Shown here one piece after another: positions 3,707 through 23,200 of a stretch of DNA of 52,238 bases. The translations under genes and the position numbers were made by a program. How positions within the stretch are numbered: the stretch's first letter is position 1; each line of letters opens with the position of its first letter. Under the pieces are notes generated by a model. It saw only the letters and a list, made by a program, of their open reading frames with translations. It was not told where the DNA came from and ran no database searches. Origin of the DNA: Caulobacter sp. (GTDB lineage Bacteria > Pseudomonadota > Alphaproteobacteria > Caulobacterales > Caulobacteraceae); the NCBI GenBank assembly GCA_028291265.1, contig JAQGIK010000135.1:1-52238 (forward strand). The letters run 5' to 3'.

Positions 3707-3896
3707 TCCTGTCGTCACCAAGACTTGGCTTGCCATTGCTAAGACCCCCGTAACGACCAACGACCTTGCGTCGCGGCTCCAAGCGGCCACCGGAAATTTG
3801 CATGGGTGCTCTGAAGGCCTAGTCAGAAGAGTGGCCCTTGGCTCGACGCCCAGGGCCTAGCGCGCTAGGGAGCGCAAGGCTGGGAGATTGAGAGCG

Positions 3897-5189
3897 TTGC
3901 CGCCGAAGAGAATATACATCCAGCTAGCCGCGTCAGCTTCCATCCTGGGCGGAAACGTAGTTCTCGCCTATGGCGTTTCTGCGGTCCTTTCCCGCCTTTT
4001 GGGTTTGGCGGGTTTCGGAATTTATTCTGTTGTCGTCGCCTTGGTCACTATGCTTACCGCCCCAGCGTTCTTTGGTCTGCCGACGCTAATCGGACGGGAG
4101 GTTGCATGGGCTTCGTCCAAAGGCGAGTTCGGCCTGGTCGCCGGGCTCATTCGGCGCTCTCACCAGTTCATTTTTTGTGTGGCGACAGCAATGATCGTCG
4201 GTGCGTTCGTCGCCCAAACGCTTGCGGGAAAATCAAGCGCGGCCCTGTACTGGGCGCTCCCACTAATCCTGATCATGTCACTTGCGGCGGCGCGTTCCGC
4301 GATGCTGCGCGGCATCGGAAAGGTGCTCGAAGGCCAATGGCCGGAGCAATTGTTACGGCCAGCCCTGCTAATCGGCCTTGCCTTAAGTTGGGTGGCTGTT
4401 GGCCGAGCGATTAGCCCGTCAGTCGCTGTCGCATTGACCGGCTTGGCGGCCTTGATTGCGTTGGCGGTGACGATGGTTCAATGGGCATTTGCCAAGCCCA
4501 AAGCACTGAGCGGCGTGACGCCGGTGTATCGAGATATGGCTTGGCTCAAAGCCGTTATCCCCTTCGCCCTCAGTACCGGCGTCCTAGTCATTTCCGCCCA
4601 AATCAGCTTGGTCATCCTCGGCGCAATCCGGGGAGCCGAGGAGGTTGCTATCTTCCGGGTGGCCAGTCAGACGGCCCAACTCTGCGCGCTAGGCTACACG
4701 GCAGCCATCATGAATATCAGCCCAAGGATCGCGGCGGCATATGCCGGTGGCGATCAGCCTGTCATGCAGCGGATCGCTCGACAGGGAGCGATGTTCGCGA
4801 CCGCCTTTTGCGTGCCTGCAGCCATAGTGCTGCTCATTGGCGGAAAGCCGCTGCTAAGCCTGATGTTTGGCAGCACCTACGGTGTCGGCGCTGCAGCAAT
4901 GGGCATCCTGGCCGTGGGCCAAGTCCTCAACAGCTCGTTTGGTTGCGGAGCGTCGCTGCTCAACATGACGGGCCATGAAAGAGACTGCACCATCGCATTG
5001 GGCGGAGGAATGGTACTCCAAATAGCGGGGTCGTTTGCCCTAGTTCCACTATGGGGCGCCACCGGAGCAGCCATCGCGGGCGTGCTTGGCGTTCTGGGAT
5101 CGAATATCGTACTTCAAAGAATGGCCATTGCACGGACCGGAATTGACCCTGCGATTTGGTCCAGCCTCTTTCATCGCCCACAAGTTTAG
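3897..5189 (+). CDS. Polysaccharide flippase (Wzx/MATE-like), first copy
   Basis: About 430 residues, an integral membrane protein with about 12 hydrophobic helices and no signal peptide. The pattern (FGIYSVVVALVTMLTAPAFFG near the N-terminus, central 'LRGIGKVLEGQWPEQLLRP', late 'MTGHERDCTIALGGG') is that of lipopolysaccharide or polysaccharide exporters that flip lipid-linked repeat units across the inner membrane. The start is uncertain: TTG 3897 has GGGAG about 10 bases upstream, and TTG 3888 is in frame but too close to it. It converges with the acyltransferase, sharing a 4-bp stop overlap (TTAG). It is clearly less GC-rich than its paralogue at 6448-7659, a common mark of surface-polysaccharide genes acquired by transfer. 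Confidence 0.85.
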   Translation: MPPKRIYIQLAASASILGGNVVLAYGVSAVLSRLLGLAGFGIYSVVVALVTMLTAPAFFGLPTLIGREVAWASSKGEFGLVAGLIRRSHQFIFCVATAMIVGAFVAQTLAGKSSAALYWALPLILIMSLAAARSAMLRGIGKVLEGQWPEQLLRPALLIGLALSWVAVGRAISPSVAVALTGLAALIALAVTMVQWAFAKPKALSGVTPVYRDMAWLKAVIPFALSTGVLVISAQISLVILGAIRGAEEVAIFRVASQTAQLCALGYTAAIMNISPRIAAAYAGGDQPVMQRIARQGAMFATAFCVPAAIVLLIGGKPLLSLMFGSTYGVGAAAMGILAVGQVLNSSFGCGASLLNMTGHERDCTIALGGGMVLQIAGSFALVPLWGATGAAIAGVLGVLGSNIVLQRMAIARTGIDPAIWSSLFHRPQV

Positions 5190-6340
5190 GGTGCCGCTAT
5201 TTTTTTCGAGAGGTCGTTGAATCGGCGACGGCCTGGATTCTCGACCCAATGATATGTCGCGCTGGCTACAGCTATCGTTAGACCAAGAAATCCAAGAGCC
5301 GCGAAGTCTCCGATCCACGCATTCGGCATGTTAATAACTACCGCATTGAATGGTCCTCGCACGGTCATCGCATCGAACCCGAAGACGGCTTCCAAAACGC
5401 TTGCTGCGCCGAATGCGATAAGCACAAGGACGTAGTGGACTAGGTAGATCGAATACGAAATCTCTCCGAGATAAGAGAGCGCACGCTGCTTTAGCGCTCT
5501 TGATAGCGGCCCCGATTGCGCAGCAAAAATCAGCACCATCGCCCCGAAGAGCAGGGGCGGAACGACGGGAATCTGCCAGTGCTTGAAAAGCACCGTAGAG
5601 GCGAGAAGTAGGGGTGCGAGCCATTCAAGCCAGCCGGGCAAGGACACGTTCCGAGCGCGTAACGCGCTGAAAAATTGGTAGACCAACGCGCCGAGAAAGA
5701 AGCCGTAGACACCCCTCACAAAGGCCGTGTGTCCTTCGGGTGGATACCAGTCGAGAGTGCTCATCCAAAGAGTAGTGAGGAAGCCAACCGCCGCAAAAAC
5801 GGAAGCCACTAGAAGCGGTTTGCGGACAATCGAAGCTGCTGCGAAGAGTAGGCAAAGCGTCCATTCGATGCTGATGCTCCAGCTGGGAATATTCCAGGTG
5901 AAGTCTCGGAAAATGCCGAGCGCGTGGACAAGAAAAATATTGGCAGGGAGCGCCCAAAGATCGGTGTCACCGGTGAAGGCCGGGCGGCCCATCGAACCGC
6001 CGATCACCAAGCTGACTGTCCATCGCGCCAGTTCGAGGAACAGGACGGCGGCCAGCGTCACGAGATGAAGGGGGTAGAGGCGACCAACCCGGCGAATTAA
6101 GAACTGCCACCGAGAAGCAGGTGACTTCAGCCCCTCTCCGTACGCGTGGGTCAGGACAAATCCGCTGAGCACAAAAAAGAAATCGACTGCGATGTCGCCA
6201 GTTCTCACCCAGAGCCAGTCGTAGGCATGTGAGACCGCCCGAAAATGGTAGAGCACGACCCAAAGCGCACAGAGGCCGCGCCAACTGTCGAGCGCCTCGA
6301 ATCTCAGAGCGGGTCGATCCGTAGTCATCACAACGGTCAT
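5186..6340 (-). CDS. Acyltransferase 3 family O-acyltransferase
   Basis: About 384 residues from ATG 6340; GTG 6349 and ATG 6328 are alternative in-frame starts. The N-terminal signature 'RFEALDSWRGLCALWVVLYHF', then 'DFFFVLSGFVLTHAY', is typical of the acyltransferase 3 (OafA/NodX/YrhL) family, whose conserved His in helix 1 takes part in transfer of acyl groups, usually acetyl, onto cell-surface or exported glycans. About ten membrane helices can be traced. It lies between two flippase genes, convergent with the first and divergent from the second, which fits modification of a surface polysaccharide. Base composition is less GC-rich than in the rest of the window. The acceptor cannot be read from the sequence. 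Confidence 0.88.
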   Translation of the reverse strand: MTVVMTTDRPALRFEALDSWRGLCALWVVLYHFRAVSHAYDWLWVRTGDIAVDFFFVLSGFVLTHAYGEGLKSPASRWQFLIRRVGRLYPLHLVTLAAVLFLELARWTVSLVIGGSMGRPAFTGDTDLWALPANIFLVHALGIFRDFTWNIPSWSISIEWTLCLLFAAASIVRKPLLVASVFAAVGFLTTLWMSTLDWYPPEGHTAFVRGVYGFFLGALVYQFFSALRARNVSLPGWLEWLAPLLLASTVLFKHWQIPVVPPLLFGAMVLIFAAQSGPLSRALKQRALSYLGEISYSIYLVHYVLVLIAFGAASVLEAVFGFDAMTVRGPFNAVVINMPNAWIGDFAALGFLGLTIAVASATYHWVENPGRRRFNDLSKKIAAP

Positions 6341-6447
6341 ACTGATCACCGTTCGGTGCGAACAGGCTTTATGTCAGAGGTGCTAGCGGCGCGGTCGCGT
6401 CGCTCGCCATCCAGGGGCTCAACGTCGGCCTGGCGTTTGCCGGCTCC

Positions 6448-7659
6448 GTGGTGCTGGCCCATGTGCTGGCGCCGGCCCGGCTGGGGGTCTACGCCTTCGT
6501 GCTGTCCTTCGCGACCGTGCTGACTGTTCCCGCCATGTTCGGCGCGCCGACCCTTGCGCTTCGGGAGGTGGCGGCGGCCAAGGCGCGCGGCGACTATGGC
6601 TTGATGAAGGGGCTGCTGACGCGGCTCCACCAGTTCGTCGCCCTGTCCAGCCTGGCCATCGCCGCCATCGCGGCGGTCTTCGCCCTGTTGACGCCCTGGG
6701 GCCGGAGCGACCCGGCGACCGTGCTCTGGGGCGTCGCCCTCATTCCGCTGATTCCGCTGTCGGCCCTGCGCGGCGGGGTGCTGCGCGGGTGGGGGGCGGT
6801 GGCGCAGGGGCAGTGGCCGGATCTGGTGCTGAAGCCGGCGGTGTTCCTGGCCGGGCTGGGCGCGGTGTTCCTGGCCCGGCGCCCGCTGGGGCCGGACGAG
6901 GCCATGGCGATGACGGCGCTGTCGAGCCTGGCGGCGCTGGCGGTCGGCTGGTGGCTGTACCGGCGCCTGCGGCCCGCGCAGCTGGTCCTGGCGACGCCGG
7001 TCTATCGCAGCCGCGCCTGGCTGGCGGCGCTGGTTCCCATGGGGGTGACGGGCGGGGCGCTGTTGATCAACGGCCAGATCGGGGTGTTGTTGGCCGGCCT
7101 GGACGGGGCCGAGACGGCCGGGCTGTACCGGCCGGCCATCCAGACCTCGCTGATCGCGGGCCTCGGCTATACCGCCGTCATCGCCGCCCTGGCGCCGCGC
7201 TTCGCCGCCGCCCATGCGAAAGGCGACCGCGAGGGCCTGGCGAGGACGGCGGCGGCCGGGGCGGCGCTGGCGGTCGTGACCTGCCTGCCGTTCGTGGCGC
7301 TGTTCGCGGTCGCCGGCGGGCCGCTGATGAGGTTGGTGTTCGGGGCTCCCTACGCCGTCGCCGGGCCGGCGCTGGCGGTGATGACCCTGGCCCAGCTGTG
7401 CAACGCGACGTTCGGCGCCGCCTCCTCGGCGCTGATCATGGCCGGGCACGAGCGGCGGGCGGCGGTGGCCTTCGTGGCGGCGCTGGCGGTCCATGCCGGG
7501 CTGGGGGTGGTGCTGATCCCGCGGTTCGGGGTCGACGGGGCGGCCTGGGCCTATCTGGGGCAGATGGCGGTGATGAACCTGGTGCTGTGGTGGCAGGCGC
7601 GGACGCTGCTGGGCCTCGACACCGGCGTCTGGGCGGCGTGGCGGTTGCTCCGCCGCTGA
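6448..7659 (+). CDS. Polysaccharide flippase, second copy; 5' end apparently frameshifted
   Basis: 403 residues from GTG 6448, a multi-helix membrane protein strongly similar along its length to the flippase at 3897-5189 (shared: GVYAFVLSFATVLT/GIYSVVVALVTMLT, LRGWGAVAQGQWP/LRGIGKVLEGQWP, GLGYTAVIAALAPRFAAA/ALGYTAAIMNISPRIAAA). Homology continues upstream of 6448 in the same frame (GAVASLAIQGLNVGLAFAGS), yet no ATG/GTG/TTG is available there. An ATG at 6371 (MSEVL) is one frame away, so a single missing base near 6383-6385 would restore a normal N-terminus lacking nothing. As written, the protein would lack part of helix 1. The gene is fully GC-rich, unlike its paralogue. It is followed 14 bases later by the Crp-like gene. 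Confidence 0.8.
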   Translation: MVLAHVLAPARLGVYAFVLSFATVLTVPAMFGAPTLALREVAAAKARGDYGLMKGLLTRLHQFVALSSLAIAAIAAVFALLTPWGRSDPATVLWGVALIPLIPLSALRGGVLRGWGAVAQGQWPDLVLKPAVFLAGLGAVFLARRPLGPDEAMAMTALSSLAALAVGWWLYRRLRPAQLVLATPVYRSRAWLAALVPMGVTGGALLINGQIGVLLAGLDGAETAGLYRPAIQTSLIAGLGYTAVIAALAPRFAAAHAKGDREGLARTAAAGAALAVVTCLPFVALFAVAGGPLMRLVFGAPYAVAGPALAVMTLAQLCNATFGAASSALIMAGHERRAAVAFVAALAVHAGLGVVLIPRFGVDGAAWAYLGQMAVMNLVLWWQARTLLGLDTGVWAAWRLLRR

Positions 7660-7673
7660 TCTATGGTTTCCAG

Positions 7674-8345
7674 ATGGAGCCCGGCCCCGATCTGACAGCG
7701 TTCGTCGCGCGCGTGTTCGCCTGTTCGCCGGCGACGGCGGAGGCGGTCGCGCGGCGGGCGGCTAGCCGCGTCTATGCGGCCCGCGCGGTGGTGCTGCGCC
7801 AGGGCGACGGCTGCAGCGACACCTGGCTGGTCATGGCCGGCCGGGCCCAGGCGCTGGTCTATGGCGTCGACGGCCAGCTGGCCATGGTCCAGGAGTATGA
7901 GGACGGCGACCTGTTCGGGGCGATCACCGCGCTGGACAGCGGGCCGCAGGCGGCCGACGTGGTCGCCGTCGACACCCTGCGCGCCGCCCTGTTCCTGAGC
8001 GCCGACTTCCTGGAGCTGATCGAGGCGCACAGCGCCGTCGGGCTGGCGGTGTCGCGGCTGCTGCTGCGCCAGCTGCGCAGCGCCACCGGGCGGATGGTCG
8101 AGCGGATGACGCTGACGGCGGCCGGGCGGACGCGGGCCGAACTGCTGAGGATGGCCGTGGACGAGGGCGGCCGGCGGGTGATCCGGCCGGCCCCGGTGTG
8201 GTCCGCGGTCGCCGTGCGCATCCACACGACGCGCGAGACGGTGTCGCGCGAGGTCAGCAAGATGGAAAGGCGCGGCCACATCCGCCGCGAGGACGGGGCC
8301 ATCGTGCTGGTCGCGCCGCGCCGCATCGAGGAAGGCGTGGTCTAG
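7674..8345 (+). CDS. Crp/Fnr-family transcriptional regulator
   Basis: 223 residues from ATG 7674, 14 bases after the flippase. The first 120 residues form the cyclic-nucleotide-binding-type beta-barrel (VVLRQGDGCSDTWLVMAGRAQAL ... EYEDGDLFGAITALDSGPQAADV). The last 60 carry a Crp-type helix-turn-helix (VWSAVAVRIHTTRETVSREVSKMERRGHI). The usual phosphate-binding cassette (GE ... RSA/RTA) is not intact: the equivalent reads FGAI ... PQAAD, with Gln in place of the Arg, so canonical cAMP binding is doubtful. There are no Fnr-type Cys clusters. It converges with, and overlaps by CTAG, the gene for a TPR protein with a cyclase-like C-terminus. Its targets are unknown. Confidence 0.88.
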   Translation: MEPGPDLTAFVARVFACSPATAEAVARRAASRVYAARAVVLRQGDGCSDTWLVMAGRAQALVYGVDGQLAMVQEYEDGDLFGAITALDSGPQAADVVAVDTLRAALFLSADFLELIEAHSAVGLAVSRLLLRQLRSATGRMVERMTLTAAGRTRAELLRMAVDEGGRRVIRPAPVWSAVAVRIHTTRETVSREVSKMERRGHIRREDGAIVLVAPRRIEEGVV

Positions 8346-9904
8346 AGATTCAGGCTGTAGACGCCGGGGTCGATGTCGTCGCCCGGCTGGTCTGCGTCCC
8401 TCGGCGGCAGCTCGCCGACCGGCTCGCAGGGGACGCTTTCGCCCTCGGGGCCGGCAGCCAGCAGGCTGGCGAACACCGCATCGACCAGCGCCGCGCCGGG
8501 CGGCACGGAGGCCAGCAGCCGGGCGGCCGTCTCGACCGGCCGGCCCATGAGCAGGCCCAAAACCTCGCGGGCCACCCCGGCCGCCCCGGCCATGCGGCCG
8601 GCGCCCAGGATCGGCGAGGCGATGCGGGCGGCGGCAAGCGCCTGTTCGCAGGTGGGGTAGGCCAGCAGCAGCGCCTGGCCGGTCCACACCGGGTCCCGGT
8701 CGCCGGCTCCGAGGACGGCCAGAAGGGCCGGCACGACGGTGTCAGCCCGACCCGCCTCCGGCGCCAGCACCAGCACGGCGGTGATCACCGCCCCCTCCGG
8801 GGCGTCCAGGGCCGCGCCCGCCGGCAGGGCCCGGCTGCGCGGCGCGGCCAGGGTCAGCGCCCGGCGACCGGCGGCCGTCCAGACCTCGCGGGCCCATGAC
8901 GTGAGGGAGGGGGAGCCGTCGGCCTCGTCCGGAAGGGTCAGTTGGATGGCCTCGCCGGCCAGCAGCCTGGCCTGCATCGCCGCCCGCCCCATGGCCGCCC
9001 GGCCGGCCAGTTTCAGGCTCAGCGGGTCGGGCCGCTCGCCGAGGCCGGCGACGACGGCGACGGTCTCCGCCCGGCCGAGCACCGCGTCGAACCGCATCCC
9101 CCAACCGTCGCCGGATTCGGGGCCGAAGGCCTCGACACTGGCCGCCCGGAAGGCCGCCCGCGCGCCCGGCAGCACCAGATGCAGCTCCGCCCCGCGCGCC
9201 AGCAACGCCTCGGCGATGACGATGTCGGCCCCCGCCGCCAGGGCCCCGTAGCCGAAGCCGACGTTCTCCCGTTCGAGGATCTCCGCCACCCGCGCCGCCA
9301 AACCGGAGTCGTGCGGATCGACCCCCAGATGGCCGGCGAAATGCAAGGCGCGCGGCGGCCGGAACGGCTCCAGCCAGTCGGCCGGCGACCCTTGCGCCTC
9401 GAGGATCAGGGCGAACTGGCGCAGGGTCGAGGCGTGGTCCTCCCAGGCGCGCGGGGCCAGTTCGACCGCCCCCTGCAGGGTCAGCCAGGCCTCGTGGGTG
9501 CGGCCGAGCAGCAGTTCGGCCTCGGCCCGGGTGGCCTCGCGCCAGTAAGGCGTGTCGGGTTCGGCGTCGCCCTGGTCCAGCCGGGCCAGCACCTTCTCGG
9601 CCAGCGCCGCCGCCCGCGCCGGCTCGCCGGCCAGCAGCGACAGGCTGGCGGCGTTGATCAGCGGATAGGTCGCCCAGTTCATCGCCCCGGCCGCCCCATA
9701 GGCCTCCGCCGACCGCCCATAAAGAGCCCGCCGTTCCTCGCCCTCCGCCCGCCGCCCCTGGTCCTTCAGCAGCCGGCCCTTGAGCGACAGCACGGCGGCG
9801 TCGTCGGTGACGGCGTCCAGGCCGGCGTCCCGGAACAGCCGCAGGGCATGGTCCAGGGCGCCGGCGCGGGCGTGGGCGATGATGGGGAGGAGGGAGGGGG
9901 TCAC
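8342..9904 (-). CDS. TPR (TRAFs-binding/DUF4071-like) protein with SLOG-like and degenerate cyclase-like regions
   Basis: 520 residues from a GTG at 9904. Residues about 1-170 are helical TPR-type repeats like the MAP3K TRAFs-binding (DUF4071) region known in bacterial signalling proteins. Residues about 185-325 look like a Rossmann/SLOG-type unit: a beta-strand then 'AGHLGV', followed by 'GYGALAAGADIVIAEALLARGAELHLVLP'. The C-terminal 170 residues follow the outline of a class III nucleotidyl cyclase ('VETAARLLASVPPGAALVDAVFASLL ... CEPVGELP') but lack the metal-binding Asp residues. It starts 9 bases after the 204-residue gene, so the two are cotranscribed. The TPR part is seen clearly; the SLOG and cyclase readings are remote-homology judgements. 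A sensor partner of the upstream TIR enzyme is the best guess. Confidence 0.75.
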   Translation of the reverse strand: MTPSLLPIIAHARAGALDHALRLFRDAGLDAVTDDAAVLSLKGRLLKDQGRRAEGEERRALYGRSAEAYGAAGAMNWATYPLINAASLSLLAGEPARAAALAEKVLARLDQGDAEPDTPYWREATRAEAELLLGRTHEAWLTLQGAVELAPRAWEDHASTLRQFALILEAQGSPADWLEPFRPPRALHFAGHLGVDPHDSGLAARVAEILERENVGFGYGALAAGADIVIAEALLARGAELHLVLPGARAAFRAASVEAFGPESGDGWGMRFDAVLGRAETVAVVAGLGERPDPLSLKLAGRAAMGRAAMQARLLAGEAIQLTLPDEADGSPSLTSWAREVWTAAGRRALTLAAPRSRALPAGAALDAPEGAVITAVLVLAPEAGRADTVVPALLAVLGAGDRDPVWTGQALLLAYPTCEQALAAARIASPILGAGRMAGAAGVAREVLGLLMGRPVETAARLLASVPPGAALVDAVFASLLAAGPEGESVPCEPVGELPPRDADQPGDDIDPGVYSLNL

Positions 9905-9913
9905 GCGAACAGT

Positions 9914-10528
9914 CTACGGAATGCTCGAGCCGCCGCTATCGGGAACATTGGGATCGAAGATGGTCGGCATGTGCTTGCGAGATTCGGGATCGATCAGATC
10001 GATGTGGAAATCGAACCCGCGGCCGACATCGCCCTCGGGTCTTGAATGGATCGACCAGTAGACGACGCGGCACCCGTCCGGCGCTCCGGCGCTGGTCGCC
10101 GGGTGCGCCATACCGAGCGAATCGACAAAATGCAGGCCGCTGTCCTCGCCGGTCTTTTGCACCTTGGGCGACACCCCTTTGCTGCCGGCTGTGAACTGCC
10201 ACTCGAACTGGCTGTCCAGCTGCAGCACCAGGATACGGGGATGGTTGGGCCGGGCGCCGCTGGTCGCCAGATTGCCAACTTCGATATCCCAGGGCGTGGG
10301 CGGGACCATGGGATCGGGGGTCGCGACATTGATGATCTTCGCGACATACTTCTCGACGTCTTCCTGGGTCGGCGCCAGGGCGGGCTTGGTCACCCGAAAG
10401 CGCGGGTGTTTCCGGCCGCCAAAGTCCCAGACCATGGTCAGAATCCGGTGCTGGATCCAGCTGCCGACGGGGAGGTCGTTGCCCTCCTCGATGACGATGT
10501 CGGTGTCGGTGTTTTCCTCGCAGCTCAT
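9914..10528 (-). CDS. Hypothetical protein, middle gene of the TIR operon
   Basis: 204 residues; the ATG at 10528 overlaps the TIR gene's stop as ATGA, fixing the start. It is a soluble-looking protein with an acidic N-terminus (CEENTDTDIVIEEGNDLP) and a compact beta-rich body. Distinctive stretches are 'ILVLQLDSQFEWQFTAGS', 'CRVVYWSIHSRPEGD', 'GFDFHIDLIDPESR' and the C-terminal 'TIFDPNVPDSGGSSIP'. There is no signal peptide, membrane segment or cofactor motif. I do not recognise the family. Its position between a TIR protein and a TPR/SLOG-like protein, joined by an overlap and a 9-base gap, suggests it belongs to the same complex or pathway. Confidence 0.8.
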   Translation of the reverse strand: MSCEENTDTDIVIEEGNDLPVGSWIQHRILTMVWDFGGRKHPRFRVTKPALAPTQEDVEKYVAKIINVATPDPMVPPTPWDIEVGNLATSGARPNHPRILVLQLDSQFEWQFTAGSKGVSPKVQKTGEDSGLHFVDSLGMAHPATSAGAPDGCRVVYWSIHSRPEGDVGRGFDFHIDLIDPESRKHMPTIFDPNVPDSGGSSIP

Positions 10529-12156
10529 TTCCTGGCGCCTTTCTTCAGCTTGATCGACAGGGCCGACAGGGCCCTGTCCGTATAGGCCGCCTGGCTCTGC
10601 CAGCGACTGTTGGTGGGATCCATGACCGCCAGGGCCCGGTAGGTGGCCTGGGAAACCTTCAGGTGTTCGATGGCCGCCGCCACGTCGCCCTGTCGATAGG
10701 CGACCAGCGACAAGCCGCGCTGGCAGGCGCCCCAATTGTCCTGCAAGTCGGCATTCTGAGGATCGGCCGCCAGAAGGCGTTTGAGAATGGCTGCTTGCGA
10801 CTGGCGGCTGGCCCGGGCGGCGGCGTAGTCGCCGCGCTCGTTCTGTACATCGGCGAGCCACGCCCAGCGGGTTGTTACGTCCAGGGCCAGGGATGCGTCG
10901 TCGGACTGGCGGGCGAACGCGGCGACCATCCGGTTCATGGCCGCACGACAGGACGCCAAGGCTCGGTCGAGTGCCTTCTCCTGCTCCAACTCGAGGGTGC
11001 ACAGGTTGCCGTCCGCATAGCCGAGTTCCCGCAGGGAGCGGACTTCATCTGGCCGGACGGCCAGCAGTCTTTCGGACAGCGTTCTATATTCCAGCCAGGC
11101 CGTCCTGGCGGCGGCGGTGTTGGCGCGGCGATAGTCGATATAGCCGCGCCAGTAGGCGCTCTGGCCGTGAGCGAACAGACGATCGGGGTCGGCCGGCGAC
11201 TTGGCCAGCAAGGCGCCAGTGACCCGGTAGGCTTCGTCGAACTGCGCCTTGGCCGTCTCGAGCCGGTCCTGAACCGCCTCATCCTCACCCATGGCATGCA
11301 GCAGCCGGGCCCGGCGCTCCAGCGCCGTCACCGGCAGGGCGTCCAGGTCCTGAGCCTCGTAATAGTCCAGGGCACGGCGATTGACGGCCCCCATCACCGG
11401 AAGGCGTCCGACGGCTCTCAGCTGCTGGCGCAGGTCGGTCAGCATGAACTCCACCAACCCCTCCGCCTCGGCCCTCTGCCGTTCAGCCTCGGCCCGCGCC
11501 TGCAGGGCGAAAGCCGTCATCGTGCCCATGGCTAGCATTCCTGCCACCGCCGCCGCCGTGACCGCCATCACGCCGCGCAGCCGTCGCTGGGCGTCGCGCT
11601 GGACCAGTTCGTCGACGCCGACGCCGGCGATGCCGGCCACCAGCTTCAACAGCGCCAGCCGCTCGCCGTCGGCCGCCTTGCGGAAATCGGCCGCCAGCGG
11701 CTCGACGCCGCCCTCGGCCAGGGCCGGCGGAAAGGCCTCCGCCGGTTCGCCGCGGATCAGCGCCGCCAGGATCGGCCGATCCGGGCGCAGTTCACGGAAC
11801 AGTTCGATCTCGCGCCCGACCCAGGGCGAGGCGGCGGCGTCGGGCGAGCAGACCACGATCAGGCAGTCGGACACCGCCAGCGCCGCCCGCACCTGCTCGC
11901 TCAGGTCCCGGGCGGCGGGCAGCTCCTCGCGGTCCTTGAAGATCGGCGCCAGCCGGCGGCCCGTCCCCAGGCGCCGGGGCAGGACATAGGCTTCCAGCCG
12001 TCGGTGCAGGCGCCCGGCGAAGGCGTCGTCCCGATGGCTGTAGCTGATGAAGGCGCGATAACCCGCGCGCCCATTCCCCATGTCCTGGGCCCCCGTATCC
12101 TCGGCCAACACGCCGGCCCCCAACCGTTGTCCGGCAAAGCTGACAGAGCCACCCAT
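10525..12156 (-). CDS. TIR-domain protein with transmembrane segment and TPR-rich C-terminus
   Basis: About 543 residues from ATG 12156; TTG 12165 and ATG 12081 are alternatives, the last starting closest to the domain. The TIR domain opens with 'YRAFISYSHRDDAFAGRL', continues 'IFKDREELPAARDLSEQVRAAL' and 'CLIVVCSPDAAASPWVGREIELF'. The Glu of WVGREI aligns with the catalytic Glu of NAD-cleaving TIRs such as SARM1, so NADase or signal-nucleotide activity is plausible. A hydrophobic helix (VMAVTAAAVAGMLAMGTMTAFAL) follows at about residue 200, then a helical C-terminal half with TPR-like repeats. It would be membrane-anchored with the TIR domain in the cytoplasm. First gene of a three-gene unit; the nitroreductase stop lies 31 bases upstream. 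Confidence 0.88.
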   Translation of the reverse strand: MGGSVSFAGQRLGAGVLAEDTGAQDMGNGRAGYRAFISYSHRDDAFAGRLHRRLEAYVLPRRLGTGRRLAPIFKDREELPAARDLSEQVRAALAVSDCLIVVCSPDAAASPWVGREIELFRELRPDRPILAALIRGEPAEAFPPALAEGGVEPLAADFRKAADGERLALLKLVAGIAGVGVDELVQRDAQRRLRGVMAVTAAAVAGMLAMGTMTAFALQARAEAERQRAEAEGLVEFMLTDLRQQLRAVGRLPVMGAVNRRALDYYEAQDLDALPVTALERRARLLHAMGEDEAVQDRLETAKAQFDEAYRVTGALLAKSPADPDRLFAHGQSAYWRGYIDYRRANTAAARTAWLEYRTLSERLLAVRPDEVRSLRELGYADGNLCTLELEQEKALDRALASCRAAMNRMVAAFARQSDDASLALDVTTRWAWLADVQNERGDYAAARASRQSQAAILKRLLAADPQNADLQDNWGACQRGLSLVAYRQGDVAAAIEHLKVSQATYRALAVMDPTNSRWQSQAAYTDRALSALSIKLKKGARK

Positions 12157-12187
12157 GGGGCGCAACGTACGATTGGTTGAGCCACGC

Positions 12188-14276: not shown

Positions 14277-17200
14277 ATGGCTGACATCACCGGCACCTCG
14301 AGCGACGAAACCATCCCCGGCACCGCCGGCGACGACAACATCCAGGCCCTGGGCGGCAATGACGTCGTCAACGCCGGCGCAGGCCGCGACTACGTCAACG
14401 GCGGCGACGGCGACGACACGCTGAACGGCGAGGCCGACGATGACACGCTGGAAGGCGGAGCCGGCAACGACACCCTGAACGGCGGGACCCAGTCGGCCTT
14501 CGGCGCCGACCAGGCCGCCTACTACGGCGCGGCCTCGGCGGTGACGGTCGACCTCAACATCCAGGGCGTGCAGCAGAACACCCTCGGCGCCGGCCTGGAC
14601 ACCCTGATCGGCATCGAAGGGGTGGCGGGCTCGATCTACAACGACACCCTGATCGGCGACGGCCAGAACAACTATTTCTACGGCAACAGCGGCAATGACG
14701 TGCTGACCGGCAACGGCGGCAACGACACGCTTGAAGGCGCCGAGGGCGACGACACCATGGATGGCGGCGCCGGAACCGGCGACAACGTCGGCTACTACAA
14801 CGCCCTCCAAGGCGTGACGGTGAACCTGAACCTGCAGGGCCAGGCCCAGAATACCGGCCAGGGCAACGACACCATCACCAACGTCGAGAACATCTTCGGC
14901 TCGCACAATTTCGGCGATACCCTGACCGGCGACGGCCAGAACAATTTCATCGGCGGCGACGGCGGCGCCGACCTGATCTCCGGCGGCCTGGGCGTCGACA
15001 ACCTGCAGGGCCAGGACGGCGACGACATCCTGCAGGGCCAGGACGGCGACGACTTCCTGGTCGGCGGGGCCGGCGCCGACACCGTCAACGGCGGCGCCAA
15101 CACCGACACCGCCGCCTACGCCGACGCCGCGGCCGGCGTCACCGTCAGCCTGATGCTGCAGAACCAGGCCCAGGACACCCTCGGCGCGGGCCTGGACACC
15201 CTGATCAGCATCGAGCGCCTGAACGGCTCTCACTTCAACGACACGCTGACCGGCGACGGCGCCAGCAACAACCTGGCCGGCGATAGCGGCGACGACGTGC
15301 TGAACGGCGGCGGCGGCACGGACAATCTCGACGCCGGCGACGGCAATGACACGTTGAACGGCGACGACGGGGACGACCAGCTGGCCGGCAATGCCGGCAA
15401 CGATACGCTGAACGGCGGCACCGGCATCGACCGGGCCCGCTACTACGACGCGGTCAGCGGCGTGACAGTGAGCCTGGCCCTGCAGGGCCAGGCCCAGGTC
15501 ACCGGCGGGGCCGGGACCGACATCCTCAACTCGATCGAGAACCTGGACGGCGGGGCCTTCGGCGACACCCTGACCGGCGACGCCGGCGCCAACAACATCA
15601 ACGGTCAGGACGGCAACGACACCATCAACTTCGGCGACGGGTCCGACAACGGCTCGGGCGGCAACGGCAACGACACCCTCAACGGCGGCGACGCCAACGA
15701 CTTCATTTCCGGCGGCCTCGGCGACGACACCGTCGACGGCGGCAATGGCACGGGCGATATGGCCCAGTACTACGACGCCACCGCCGCGGTGACGGTCAGC
15801 CTGGCGCTGCAGAATACCTCCCAGAACACCGGCGGGGCCGGGTTCGACATCCTGCGCAACTTCGAGCAGCTGAGCGGTTCGAACTTCAACGACACCCTGA
15901 CCGGCGACGCGACCGCCAACTTCCTCTCCGGCGAACTGGGCGACGACATCCTGGTCGGCCAGGACGGCAACGACAGCCTGCAGGGCGGCCTGGGCAACGA
16001 TACCCTGAGCGGCGGCAACGGAACCGACAGCGCCAACTACGGCAACGCCACGGCCGGCGTCACGGTCACTCTGCTGAGCCAGGGTGTGGCCCAGAACACC
16101 GTAAACGCCGGCAACGACACCCTGACCGGCATCGAGAACCTCAACGGTTCGAACTTCGCCGACACCCTGACCGGCGACAATCTGGTCAACTTCCTCGGCG
16201 GCGGCCTCGGCAACGACACCCTGTTCGGCAACGGCGCCAACGACACCCTGCAGGGCGCGGCCGGCGACGACACCCTCAACGGCGGCGACGGCTTCGACGG
16301 AGCCAGCTACAACGAGACCACGGCCAGCGTCACCGTCGACCTGCGCATCCAGGGCGTCAGCCAGAACACCGGCGCCGGCGGCATCGACACCCTGATCAGC
16401 ATCGAGAACCTGATCGGCGGCAGCGGCAACGACAGCTTCACCGGCGACGACACCTCCAACTTCTTCACCGGCAACGCCGGCGACGACACCCTGATCGGCT
16501 ACGGCGGCAACGACAACTTCACCGCCGGCCTCGGCAACGACGTCATGAACGGCGGCGACGGCTTCGACACCGCCAACTACGGCGACGCCACCGTCGCCGT
16601 CACGGTCGACCTGCGCGTCCAGGGCGCGGCCCAGAACACCGGCTGGGGCAACGACACCCTGATCGCCATGGAGAACGTCAACGGCGGGTCGGGCAACGAC
16701 ACCCTGATCGGCGACGACACCGGCAACTTCAATTTCGGAGGAACCGGCAACGACACCATGTACGGCAACGGCGGCGACGATCAGCTGACCGGCGGCTTCG
16801 GAAATGACATCATCGACGGCGGGCTCGGCAACGACGTCGTCACCTACGGCGACGCCACCGTCGGCGTGACCGTCAGCCTGGCGCTGCAAGGCCAGTCCCA
16901 GAACACCAACTGGGGCTCCGACACCCTGACCGGGTTCGAATTCCTGTCGGGCTCGAACCTCAACGACACCCTCGGCGGCGACGGCTACACCAACGCCATC
17001 TACGGCCAGAACGGCAACGACACCATCAACGCCGGCGCCGGCGACGACTATGCCATCGGCGGCCTCGGCGACGACGTGGTCAACGGCGAGGACGGCAACG
17101 ACCGCCTCTACGGCAGCGTCGGCAACGACACCTACAACGGCGGCGAAGGCTTCGACACCGTCGACTTCGAGGTCGCCGGGACCGACGCCCAGGTCGGCGC

Positions 17201-20200
17201 CACCGTCGATCTGGAGATCGTCGGGGCCCAGAACACCGGCCACGGCATGGACATCCTGACCGGCATCGAGCACCTGGCCGGCACCATCTACAACGACACC
17301 CTGAGCGGCAACGCCGGGGCCAACCATCTGGCCGGCCAGGGTGGCAACGACGTCCTCGACGGCCGCGGCGGCGACGACCTGCTGGATGTGACGGACGGCG
17401 ACCACAGTCTGATCGGCGGCGACGGCAGCGACACGGTGCGGTTCGATGACGCCCTGATCGGCGTCACCGTTTCCCTGGCGCTGGGCGACACGGCCCAGGA
17501 AACCGGCATCGGCGAGATGGTCTTCGACGAGATCGAAAACCTCGTCGGCGGCGACTTCGACGATACCCTGACCGGCGACGATGCGGCCAACATCCTGGCC
17601 GGCGCCATGGGCGACGATACCCTCGACGGCGGGGCCGGGAACGACAAGCTTTGGGGTGACGGCGCCATCGGCGTCGACGAAGGCGAGTTCGGCGACTCCG
17701 GCCCGATCGTCCGGTCGGCCGACGTTCTGGCCGACTATGGCGAGGAAGGCTTCAACGGCGACGATATCCTGAGCGGCGGCGCCGGCAACGACGAACTGGT
17801 CGGCGGCAGCGGTAACGACGCCCTGACCGGCGGGGCCGACGACGACACCCTCGACGGCGGGGCCGGCAGCGACACCGCCTTCTTCAGCGGCGTCCGTTCG
17901 GCCTACAGCCTGACCCAGGTCAATTCGACGACCTGGACGCTCAGCGGTCCGGAGGGGACCGACACCCTGATCGGCATGGAGTTCGTCCAGTTCTCCGACG
18001 TCAAGGTCGGGCTGGTCTACAACGTCATCAACGGCACGGGCGCCTCCGATACCCTCGGCGGAACCGGCGGGGCCGACCAGATCAACGGCCTGGACGGCGA
18101 CGACACCCTGCTTGGGGCCGGCGGCGACGACGAGCTGAACGGCGGCAATGGCCACGACTTCCTGCGCGGCGACCTCGGCAATGACGCCCTGCACGGCGGC
18201 GAGGGCGACGACTACCTCCGCGGCAGCGACGGCGACGACGTCATGGACGGCGGCAACGGCCTCGACCGCGCCGCCTTCTTCCTGGCCGGATCCGACGCCC
18301 AGGTCGGCGCCACCGTCGATCTCAACATCCAGGGCGTCGCCCAGGATACCGGCCACGGCATGGACACCCTGATCGGCATCGAGCATGCCTCGGGCACCCA
18401 CCTCAGCGACACGATCATCGGCAACGCCGGCGACAACTGGCTCTGGGGCAGCTCGAACGGCGCCGGCGTCAACGGCAACGACATCATCGAGGGCCGGGAC
18501 GGCAACGACCTGATCGTCGTCGGCTCCGGCGACCATCAGCTGGACGGCGGCAATGGTATCGACACGGTTTCCTTCGGGGGCACCCCGGATGACTTCGCCA
18601 CCGGCCTGACCATCGATCTCGGCCTGCAGGGCGGATCCCAGAACACCGGCCAGGGGAACATGGTCCTCGACGGGTTCGAGAATGTCTCCGGCACGTTCAA
18701 GAACGACACCATCACCGGCGACGGCGCCAACAACCTGCTGGCCGGCCACCTGGGCGATGACCACCTGCTGGGCGCGGGCGGCAATGACGTCCTGCTGGGC
18801 GACGGCCTGTACGACATCGACAGCCACGGGGTCGGCACCTCCGGCGCCATCCACCGCACCGACGACGCCTCGCTCAACGACCCGCTCGACAAGGGCAACG
18901 ACACGCTGGAAGGCGGGGCCGGCAACGACACCCTGATCGGCGGCGGCGGTGACGACCTCCTCATCGGCGGCGCGGGGGCGGATAACCTGCAAGGCGGGGC
19001 CGGGTTCGATATCATCAGCTACGCCGACGCGACCATCGATGTGGCCGTCAACCTCGCCCAGACCACGGTTAATGACGGCACCGGCGTCGACACCTACTCC
19101 GGCATCGAAGGGGTCATCGGGTCGGCCTTCGACGACTTCCTGCAAGGCAACGCCAGCGCCAACAGCCTCGACGGCGGCGAGGGCGATGACGTCCTGCGCG
19201 CACAGGGCGGCGACGACGTTGTGAACGGTGGGCTGGGCGATGACCAGGTCCGCGGCCAGGCCGGAAACGACCAGGTGCATGGCGGCGCCGGTAATGACTA
19301 CGTCCAGGGCGGCGACGGCGACGATCTCATCGACGGCGGCGAGGGCTTCGACCGGGCGGCCTTCTTCGACACCACTGTCAGCCTGCACGTCGATCTGCGG
19401 CTGCAGGGCGTGGCCCAGGACACCGGCCAGGGCATGGATACCCTCGTCGCCATCGAGCACCTGTCAGGCGGCGCCCTCGCTGACACCCTGATCGGCAATG
19501 ACAGCGCCAACTGGCTGGCCGGTTCGGGCGGTGACGACACCCTCAGCGGCCAGGGCGGCGACGACTACCTCAGCGTCATCCAGGGGGCCAACAGCGTCGA
19601 TGGGGGCGATGGCGTCGACACCTTCGCCTACACCGACCTCAACACCGGGGGCGTCACCGTCTCCCTGCTGTTGCAGGGCGCGGCCCAGGACACCGGCCAG
19701 GGCATGATGACCCTGACCAACATCGAGAACCTCAACGGCTGGTTCTTCAACGACACCCTGACCGGGGATGCCGGCGCCAACCTGCTGGCCGGCGACGGCG
19801 GCGACGACGTGCTCAACGCGGGCGACGGCGACGACATCCTGCTCGGTGACGGGTCCGTTGGCCCGGACACCGGCGTTGCCAGGCTCTCTGGTCCGCTTGC
19901 CGTCTTTGACGATGTCACCCTCGCGGCCGGCGTGCCCGGCGGCGAGGACACCCTGAACGGCGGCGCGGGCGACGACATCCTGCGCGGTGGTCGCGGCAAT
20001 GACAGCCTCGATGGCGGCGCCGACACCGACACCGCCATCTTCGCCGGCAATCGCGCCGACTACACCATCGCCTTCGGCGGCGGCGGCGTGATCACCGTCA
20101 CCGGGGCCGACGGCGCCGACACGGTCACCGGCGTCGAATACTTCCAGTTCGACGATCAGAGCGTCGCGCTGATCGACCTGGTGCCGGTCACCCTGGCGGC

Positions 20201-23200
20201 CGACGCCCTGACCATCACCCGCACCCTGGCCTCGGACCTCAAGGCCGAGGTGCTGCTGGCCAATGACGGCCTGGCCGGCGGCTACACGGTCACCGGCGTA
20301 CGCCATGTCGTCAACGCCACCGTCACCCTGGTCGGCGGCCGGCTCCACATCGTCGCCACCGGCCCCAATGCCAGCTTCGAGTACCTGGCTGACGGTCCCG
20401 ATGGTCCCAAGGCCGGGGCGGTCAACGTCTCGACCCTGGTCACCACCAACGTCGTCGACACGGTCAGCGGCGGTGCGGCCAACGCCGCCGACCTGCAGGG
20501 CCAGAACGGCAACGACACCCTGACCGGCACGGGCGGCTCCGACCGGCTGGTCGGCGGCCTCGGCAACGACATCCTCGATGGCGGGCTGAGCGTCGACGAA
20601 CTGATCGGCGGGGCCGGCAACGACACCTACCGCGTCACCGCCGGCGACCTGATCACCGAACTGGCGGGCGAGGGGATCGACACCGTCGAGGTGGCCAGCG
20701 GCAGCTACACGCTGGGCGCCGAACTCGAAAAGCTCACTCTGCTGGCCGCGGCCGGGGCGGTGAACGGCACGGGCAACGGCCTCGACAACACGCTGGTCGG
20801 CAACGCCTCCAACAACGTGCTGGACGGCGGCCTCGGGGCCGACATCCTGCAGGGCGGGGCCGGCGACGACACCTACGTCGTCGACAATGTCGGAGACACC
20901 ATTTCCGACCTCGGCGGCGGCGTCGACACCGTGCGGACGACGCTGAACAGCTACACGCTGGGCTCGACCACCCTGGAGAACCTGACCTTCACTGGGACCG
21001 GCGCCTTCACCGGCACGGGCACCACCCTCGCCAACGTCATCACCGGCGGGGCGGGCAACGACCGCCTCGACGGCCTGGGCGGCACGGACACCACCATCGG
21101 CGGGCTCGGCGACGACACCCACGTGGTCGGCTCGGCCGGCGACATCGTCGTCGAACTGGCCGGCCAGGGGACCGACACCGTCGAAGCCAGCGCCACTTAC
21201 GTGTTGGCCGCGGGCGTCTCGATCGAAAACATGGTCGCTGTCGGCGCCGCGGCGGTCGGCCTGACCGGCAACGAGCTGGACAACAGCCTGACCGGCAACG
21301 GCGCCGCCAACGTCCTGAACGGCGGCCTCGGGGCCGACGCCATGGCGGGCGGGCTCGGCGCCGACACCTACATCGTCGACAACGCCGGCGACACGGTGAC
21401 CGAACTGGCCGGCGGCGGCATCGACACTGTCCAGTCCAGCGTCGACTACACCCTCGGGGCCGAGGTCGAGCGCCTGACCCTGACCGGCGTGGCCATCTCG
21501 GCCATCGGCAACAGCCTGGACAACGTCCTGATCGGCAACGGCCAGGACAACATCCTCGACGGCAAGGCCGGGGCCGACAACATGCAAGGCGGGACCGGCA
21601 ACGACACCTACTATGTCGACAACGCCGGCGACGTGATCACCGAGAGCGGGGTTGGGACCGACAGCGTCTTCACCAGCCTGGCCAGCTACGCCCTGGCCGC
21701 GGCGCTGGAGAACCTCTCCTACAACGGGGTGGGGACCTTCAGCGGCACGGGCAACGCCGTCGCCAACATCATCAACGGCGGGACGCTCAACGATACCCTC
21801 AGCGGCCTGGCCGGCGACGACATCCTCAACGGCGGCCTCGGGGCCGACGCCATGAATGGCGGTGACGGCAACGACACCTATTACGTCGACAACGCCGGCG
21901 ACACGATCACCGACAGCACCGGCATCGACACGGTTATGACCACGCGCAGCTACACGCTGGCCGCAAACCTTGAGAACCTCAGCTACGTCGGCTCTGGAGC
22001 CGCCTCTCTGACCGGAAACAGCCTGGCCAACATCCTCTCGGGCGGAGCCGGCGACGACTTCCTCAAGGGTCTGGCCGGCGCCGACACACTGAACGGCGGC
22101 TTCGGAGTCGATGACCTGCAGGGCGGCGACGGGGACGACATCCTCGACGGCGGCGCGGGCGCGGACACCCTGCTGGGCGGCCTCGGCAACGACACCTTCG
22201 TCATCGACGACGCCGGCGACGTGGTCACCGAGAACCTCGGCCAGGGCACGGACAAGGTGCGGACGGCCCTGGCCAGCTACACCCTCACGGCCAACGTCGA
22301 GAACCTGGACTACATCGGGGCCGGATCCTTCACCGGCACGGGCAACGACCTGGCCAACGTCATCACCGGCGGGGCCATGGCCGACACCCTGTCGGGCGGC
22401 ATCGGCAACGACACCCTCAATGGCGGCGGCGGGATCGACACGCTCGACGGCGGCGACGGGACCGACATCCTCGACGGCGGCGCGGGCGCGGACGCCATGA
22501 CCGGCGGTCTCGGCAACGACACCTTCCTGGTCGACGACGCCGGCGACTTGGCCGTGGAACTGGCGGCCGGCGGCACGGACACCATCCGCGTCACCGCCTC
22601 CAGCTACGTCATGGGCGCCGAGATCGAGATCATGCAGTTCGTCGGCGCGGGCGCCTTCAACGGCACGGGCAACGCGGCGATCAACACCATCGTCGGCGGG
22701 GCCGGGGCCGACACTCTCGACGGCGCGGCCGGGGCCGACACCCTGCGCGGCGGCCTGGGCGGCGACAGCCTCATTGGCGGGCTCGACAACGACAAGCTCT
22801 ACGGCGAGGACGGCGACGACATCCTCAGCGGCGGCGACGGCAACGACACCCTCTACGGCGGCGCGGGGGTCGACTCCCTGACCGGCGGGCTGGGCCGCGA
22901 TGTCTTCGTCATGCAGGTGGTTTCGGACAGCGGTGTTGGAGCGGGCAATCGCGACATCATCAACGACTGGGACGCGGCCGATGTCATCGATCTGCGGGCG
23001 CTCGATGCGGTTCCCGGTGGGGCTGACGACGCCTTCCTCTACCTCGGCACGGCAGCCTTCAGCGGCGGTGGCGTCGGCGAGGTGCGCTGGCAGCTGAGCG
23101 GCGGCGCCACCATCGTCCAGGGCGACCTGGATGGTAACGGCGTGGTCGACTTCGAGATCCAGATCACCGGGACCCAGACCCTCAACAACCTCGACTTCCT

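Follow-up and report, generated by a model that had tools for sequence, protein, structure and literature searches.

A Caulobacter gene module of TIR, pNTSase1-like and TPR-S proteins and its Crp-type transcription regulator

In this study, we examined a 52,238-nt stretch of Caulobacter DNA (contig JAQGIK010000135.1 of assembly GCA_028291265.1; hereafter called the window), in which three genes on the reverse strand encode a TIR-domain protein, a small middle protein, and a protein of the TPR-S family, and found that the TPR-S protein has a partner, namely a Crp/Fnr-type regulator, the gene of which overlaps the end of the TPR-S gene from the opposite strand. Gene fusion together with adjacency shows this partnership. 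On balance, we favor the view that the four genes constitute a signal-transduction module that is initiated by a membrane TIR protein and has transcription as its output; the signal, its direction, and the binding to DNA are what we infer in this view. The genome that contains the window is 4.35 Mb in 198 contigs and 94% complete. An original prediction had described the three reverse-strand genes as a candidate new nucleotide-signalling or defence module. Their open reading frames (ORFs) were verified at the predicted positions by inspection of the reading frames, and so were the ATGA overlap of the TIR and middle genes and the 9-base gap (9905-9913) between the middle and TPR-S genes. The trio is real and conserved, yet its components fall in named families (TIR_2, TPR-S, and, as a very divergent member, pNTSase1), and the fourth gene, that of the Crp/Fnr-type regulator, had been overlooked.

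TPR-S and the Crp-type regulator as partners

The TPR-S gene (8342..9904, reverse strand; GTG start, 520 residues) and the regulator gene (7674..8345, forward strand; 223 residues) stand tail to tail in the window, with a 4-base overlap of their ends. The former product, originally called a TPR protein, is indeed placed in the TPR-S family by PF20308 (31 bits against a cut-off of 27.6), a profile matched at E<=1 by 76 of 76 relatives, some of them under the cut-off. The latter has both a cyclic nucleotide monophosphate (cNMP)-binding fold (PF00027, 45.7 bits) and a Crp helix-turn-helix (HTH; PF13545, 29.9 bits), each over its cut-off. When 61 genomes were searched with the single sequence, TPR-S was found in 22 of them (its own included) and in 21 of the 37 within the genus. 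This search gave 24 distinct TPR-S places, and the neighbourhoods covered were the window and 18 others, leaving out those of G004, G010, G019, G032, and G033. A set of named genomes was also assembled from the best 80 of 229 confirmed TPR-S relatives, mainly in Caulobacterales and Sphingomonadales, and 20 further stretches were taken from 103 genomes of the order. Two duplicates, L032 (identical to L081) and L034 (identical to L110), were dropped from the tree, linkage, and joint-state counts and kept in the palindrome counts.

Among the 80 named-genome loci, 76 have a convergent Crp gene at most 500 bp away from TPR-S and 77 have any Crp gene; none was found in L091, L109, or L132, and the Crp gene of L095 is on the same strand. 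The other branch includes 11 Caulobacter loci (L037, L038, and L040-L048) with a second gene order, in which Crp is divergent from TIR. Seven of the 20 further stretches (L187, L188, and L197-L201) have the convergent Crp pair, and three of these (L187, L188, and L199) have an inverted middle gene; seven hold fusions, and four (L193-L195 and L202) show no clear module.

In these fusions, found in seven genomes that all belong to one family (f5), TPR-S and the Crp-type protein are a single open frame. All of the four fusions given to Pfam have HTH_Crp_2 and TPR-S over the cut-off; the match to the cNMP-binding domain is sub-threshold in three of them and missing in the fourth. In the other three fusions (L190-L192), both profiles match in a single frame. 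The fusions form their own clade (support 100/100), and no pair of cyclase metal motifs was found by pattern in the fused proteins. Two observations weigh against treating all four genes as one unit: L189 and L196 hold TPR-S and a TIR gene with no Crp gene within the stretch, and the fused genes have no TIR or middle gene as a neighbour within the sequence read around them, only 3-4 kb for two of the fusions.

We regard it as very improbable that these genes are neighbours merely by chance or common ancestry and have no joint function. Crp-type genes are not rare, given 18 HTH_Crp_2 matches (nine over the cut-off) in the window's genome, and close relatives do have common flanks: among 58 loci flanked by 2.5 kb or more on each side, any common flanking gene was seen in 28/28 pairs with a TPR-S identity of at least 70% and in 10/42 pairs at 50-70%. 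The proportion is, however, 11/365 at 40-50% and 16/1218 below 40%. Because the genes of the module stay joined across deep divergence as their flanks turn over, a neighbourhood due to chance or ancestry is disfavored, and the two gene orders and the gene fusion also speak against it.

The TIR protein and the middle protein

The trio co-occurs in other genomes, which the original prediction had named as a check: a same-strand TIR gene is upstream of TPR-S within 4 kb in 68 of the 80 named-genome loci. In 70 loci, a TIR gene is upstream anywhere in the stretch, and 69 of these have a same-strand ORF of at least 140 residues in the gap, with Asp-Pro near its end in 64 of the 69; no convincing middle gene was seen in L084 and L130 among the 70. 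Also, the middle gene lies between TIR and TPR-S in 16 of the 18 neighbourhoods outside the window, the exceptions being L032, with no TIR nearby, and L039, where TIR and TPR-S are 3.2 kb apart. A single-sequence search with the middle protein hit 6 of the 61 genomes, and the middle gene of the 16 neighbourhoods is either long or, in a short form, ~132-143 residues in length. Variations on this layout include two consecutive middle-type ORFs between TIR and TPR-S in L105, two candidates in a long gap in L076, and split modules, in which TIR and the middle gene make a pair with no TPR-S nearby (L031 in G018 and L033 in G036). The TPR-S and Crp pair of G036 (L032) is on a contig other than that of its TIR and middle pair.

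The middle gene (9914..10528, reverse strand) encodes 204 residues with a C-terminal FDPNVPDSGG motif. Its product had been called an orphan, a label to be dropped now that position and alignment make it kin of the named family pNTSase1. Indeed, when the positional ORFs of the named genomes were scanned singly, 43 of 68 matched PF20301 (pNTSase1) at E<=1, the best at 3.4e-67; the remaining 25 had no pNTSase1 match, and any other family was matched by one ORF at most. The window protein scores 12.3 bits, below the cut-off of 25, and its close relative in L069 scores 21.5 bits, which is still sub-threshold; judging from these sequences, the window protein is probably a divergent pNTSase1 member. 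A count made with an alignment-built middle profile (46/80) was discarded as circular, since the 44 more-alike of the 68 ORFs had been used for the model. In an AlphaFold2 (AF2) model, the middle protein is a confident beta-sandwich with a predicted local distance difference test (pLDDT) score of 83, and Foldseek against PDB found no significant fold match for it (best E of 0.08). Kinship with PixA was considered and is not claimed; the structures matched with low TM-scores include PixA inclusion-body proteins and antibody domains, and PixA is absent from the family lists. “Nucleotide synthetase” is the name of the family, and the enzyme role of the window protein is only putative, the model neither supporting nor excluding it. 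For all three proteins of the trio, a scan against NCBIfam gave no match over the cut-off.

The TIR gene (10525..12165, reverse strand; 546 residues) has an uncertain start, the candidates being TTG at 12165, ATG at 12156, and ATG at 12081. Its product matches TIR_2 (PF13676; 51.1 bits, cut-off 28) and also ThsB_TIR (33.9 bits), and the TIR domain (~12051-11677) is followed by a hydrophobic segment (~11571-11500) and then by a TPR-like C-terminal region. The catalytic-type Glu pointed out in the original prediction is retained, so that the window has the TIR domain with catalytic-type Glu that is looked for in Thoeris: all 16 aligned relatives carry E119 of WVGRE, among them loci that have lost the cyclase motifs described below. 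A membrane anchor, also part of that prediction, is likely; a hydrophobic stretch does exist C-terminal of the TIR domain, but its hydropathy is moderate. The top 19-residue hydropathy stretch falls within the TIR region both in the window (residue 170) and in L030, and the hydropathy scan found no 19-residue stretch above 1.6 in the TIR protein of L039. Two further points count against a TIR-initiated module: the Glu is the sole TIR catalytic position examined, which leaves an NAD-cleaving (NADase) activity putative, and the TIR start in the window is 22 bases downstream of a nitroreductase gene, so that a promoter of its own is unclear.

Cyclase motifs, Crp contacts, and promoter palindromes

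Pfam finds only TPR-S and MAP3K_TRAF_bd in the window TPR-S protein, to which the AF2 model (pLDDT of 94) adds a Rossmann-like and a cyclase-like domain. The model is composed of TPR helices (residues 1-181; 9904-9362), a Rossmann-like alpha/beta domain (residues 185-351; 9352-8852), and a C-terminal domain (residues 372-518; 8791-8351), all on the reverse strand. The whole model is matched in Foldseek to the class III cyclases Ma1120 and Rv1264 (probability of 1.0, target TM of at most 0.67) and to TPR-bearing O-GlcNAc transferases, and the 50 whole-model matches listed consist of TPR and cyclase proteins. The class III cyclase fold, which had been named among the candidates for a fold search, is thus found in the C-terminal third of TPR-S. 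The window protein has Ala and Gln at the two metal-binding Asp positions, and this domain is, by its modelled fold, a decayed class III cyclase. Both cyclase motifs are kept in Caulobacter relatives of ~583 residues and in L148 and L197-L199.

The proposal of a SLOG-like region in this protein is borne out as far as the modelled Rossmann-like fold goes, but no SLOG match was obtained by Pfam or by a PDB profile search. The domain holds a conserved GxLAAGADIxxAE motif, which we take to resemble the YpsA/DprA type of SLOG domain. Seven domain fragments hit no SLOG family in Pfam, and the PDB profile search gave nothing credible (best E of 0.39). In hhalign, probabilities against DprA and YAcAr, which we assume to be SLOG-family members, were 0.4% and 0.3%, with column-shuffled copies at up to 0.8%; the positive control, DprA against YAcAr, reached only 2.6%, and this comparison is powerless. 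The SLOG identity of the Rossmann-like domain is therefore putative.

In cAMP-binding Crp proteins, a Glu and an Arg of the phosphate-binding cassette make the contacts with the cyclic nucleotide. These two residues are replaced by Ala and Gln in the window Crp, and we compared the states of the two proteins in 101 loci with both genes (after the two exact duplicates were dropped), by using motif rules taken from general background. Where the cyclase motifs are intact, both Crp contacts are present in 15 of 15 loci; where they are not, as in the window, both contacts are kept in 0 of 86, and none of these 86 has the Arg at its aligned column. Reading of the sequences supplied the states for L187, L188, and L197-L201, and five loci (L073, L113, L120, L124, and L128) that have Asp in both aligned columns and no FxDxxG or GDG motif were scored as lost. 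By column alone (n=96), 12 loci have both traits, 5 have the cyclase only, and 79 have neither.

Several findings weigh against the favored view of the module. Among 82 checked Crp proteins scored as lost, 22 carry an Arg one residue off, 17 fit a looser Glu...Arg pattern, and 5 keep the Glu; the shifted Arg and the looser pattern mean that some of these proteins may still bind a ligand. Also, class III cyclases normally carry an Asn before the Arg, and this Asn is missing in the intact cyclases inspected (L040 and L197). Furthermore, in a phylogeny built only from the TPR and Rossmann parts, both traits are explained by two changes, leaving one or two independent pairs (p = 1), and a second tree that includes six of the seven fusions (61 rows, the named loci of the large group being thinned to every third) agrees. 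As scored from the sequences, therefore, the joint pattern is exact for the residue pair, yet few evolutionary events (about two) lie behind it.

Our reading of this pattern is tentative, and we hold it with distinctly less conviction than that of a signalling module as such: a TIR receptor would address a dedicated Crp factor, and in an ancestor this may have been done by a cyclic-nucleotide relay, the enzyme and receiver of which jointly lost their chemistry, so that the present circuit from TIR to gene would be wired by protein contact or depend on a new ligand. The shifted Arg in some of the “lost” Crp proteins weakens this reading. The co-occurrence of intact cyclase and intact Crp contacts would also fit a cyclic-nucleotide pathway in which TIR is a scaffold, clustering TPR-S so that its intact cyclase feeds cNMP to Crp, with no NAD chemistry; TIR domains can in fact act by assembly alone. 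We nonetheless consider a mere scaffold unlikely, given that the TIR Glu is invariant even where the cyclase is lost and that the window branch retains no cyclase metal sites.

We also looked for sites that the regulator might bind. The canonical E. coli-type TGTGA-N6-TCACA was rejected as an operator, its mean score being barely above those of shuffles; CGTGA-N6-TCACG was spotted among the hits of that scan and tested afterwards, and this pattern was accordingly chosen after looking. Perfect CGTGA-N6-TCACG sites occur in 14 of 83 TIR upstream regions and in none of 30 dinucleotide shuffles. The palindrome is ~elevenfold enriched in the module promoters, with 28 sites in 47.3 kb (0.59 per kb) as compared with 80 sites in 1516 kb of these loci outside the promoters (0.053 per kb). 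It is present in 26 of 98 loci, among which are two duplicate pairs, and can precede TPR-S instead where TIR is not beside TPR-S (L032/L081, L078, and L080). Against its general use as an operator, random 380-base windows of the same loci contain a mean of 2.55 perfect sites per 83 (maximum of 7), and 72 of the 98 loci, the window included, have no palindrome in the promoters examined.

A stricter form, CGTGAC-N4-GTCACG, was found 1-4 times in each of seven Caulobacter genomes (18 in total) and stands ahead of the module in four of them (G003, G016, G035, and G036). The single strict site of the window's genome (14005-14020) is inside a YkuD-like ORF, and the closest relative of this genome, G018, has two, one in the YkuD-like gene and one elsewhere; strict sites falling in coding sequence, either that of the TIR hydrophobic segment or the YkuD-like gene, were not taken as promoter sites. 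In G036, two strict palindromes 868 bases apart flank an ORF of 259 residues (L203; G036:C1:291852 and 292720), and this pair is possibly a second target of the regulator.

As for other genes in the window, two flippase-like genes with ~39% mutual identity (3888-5189 and 6448-7659, both on the forward strand) have an acyltransferase gene (5186-6349, reverse strand) between them, and an open frame of 2976 residues with RTX-like repeats rich in glycine and aspartate is at 14277-23207 on the forward strand.

Signalling, defence, and known systems

A plausible course of signalling can be drawn from these observations. The TIR protein, bound to the membrane and probably with a non-cytoplasmic TPR region, would sense a cue, and its TIR domain may make an NAD-derived or other nucleotide signal, which the pNTSase1-like small protein, linked in position, putatively helps to make, carry, or gate. 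TPR-S, the partnership of which is suggested by gene linkage, would sense the signal via its TPR/Rossmann part and then control the dedicated Crp-type transcription factor, to which it is linked and, in some genomes, fused. In one branch, the relay between the two may be a cyclic nucleotide from the apparently intact cyclase domain; in the window branch, the two proteins probably communicate by direct contact or through another ligand, and probably not through a cyclic nucleotide, because the cyclase metal sites and the Crp contacts are both changed there. In some genomes, the regulator is predicted to bind CGTGA-N6-TCACG before the module's own genes, a site not seen in the window.

The alternative closest to the original prediction is a Thoeris-like anti-phage system, in which infection leads TIR to make an NAD-derived signal, TPR-S senses it, and abortive infection follows. 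The ThsB_TIR match of the TIR domain speaks for this alternative, and the survey of prokaryotic immune systems by Burroughs and Aravind in 2020 is said to be the source of both TPR-S and pNTSase1. The TPR-S family is predicted to act in nucleotide-derived signalling. On the other side, the partner is a transcription factor, fused to TPR-S in some genomes, and no known toxic effector is present in the module, in agreement with the earlier remark that no NADase or pore effector was obvious; neither a sirtuin NADase nor another known effector was found in TPR-S by Pfam, AF2/Foldseek, or PADLOC. PADLOC gave just two weak TIR matches in the trio and nothing for the other two proteins, and two genes were matched among ten neighbours, neither indicating a defence system (three models over the cNMP-binding part of Crp and one desaturase-like match). 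The window TPR-S matched nothing in the phage collection and three plasmid records, and the presence of TPR-S in more than half of the genus genomes searched (21/37, as above) is likewise at odds with this alternative. The claim of a defence module is hence left without support from PADLOC or the phage collection; a defence role is possible, with no supporting finding in this analysis, and we consider the Thoeris-like alternative improbable. A distant TPR-S gene on the Caballeronia plasmid pSBC2-4 (L219), annotated as cyclic nucleotide biosynthesis, is near TIR and DUF4231 genes, and this neighbourhood indicates that TPR-S has other uses.

These results suggest that, in this module, TIR signalling acts on gene expression and does not serve to kill infected cells. 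Most studies of bacterial TIR domains have treated them as defence enzymes, which kill the cell or bring it to a halt. If our reading is true, a module widespread in Caulobacter and sphingomonads would be a bacterial parallel to animal Toll-like receptors, in which TIR signalling leads to gene expression, and Caulobacter would be an accessible genetic system for learning what the TPR-S scaffold, a relative of a part of ASK kinases, senses. The joint decay of cyclase and receiver would, moreover, clearly exemplify how a second-messenger pathway can lose its messenger. No publication joining TIR, TPR-S, and Crp was found in the literature covered, which largely excludes subscription journals.

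In comparison with known systems, Thoeris works by TIR-to-SLOG signalling (PMC9503650). The present module resembles it in having a TIR protein plus a partner with a Rossmann-like domain and differs in that no sirtuin or other known effector was found, the SLOG identity is putative, and the partner is a transcription factor. With class III adenylyl cyclase-Crp signalling and Pycsar-type cNMP defence, the module has in common a cyclase-fold protein and a partner of cNMP-binding fold in one locus, and residues 15-136 of the window Crp weakly match the Pycsar-type effector models of PADLOC; unlike in those systems, the cyclase metal motifs are missing from the window and from 85 of the 100 other loci, where at most one of the two Crp contacts is kept, and the partner carries a Crp HTH. 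The MAP3K TRAFs-binding region of animal ASK kinases (PF13281) is matched by 64 of 76 TPR-S relatives at E<=1, the best at 4.5e-11, with the window TPR-S sub-threshold (16.3 bits against 24.1); the partner here is a transcription factor, and there is no kinase. In its components, the module is like the TPR-S systems with TIR, which have the TIR and TPR-S families and pNTSase1, the kin of our middle gene. From these systems, the module described here appears to be set apart by the cyclase-like C-terminus of TPR-S and by a conserved Crp-type fourth part, the gene of which occurs in two orders and also fused to that of TPR-S.

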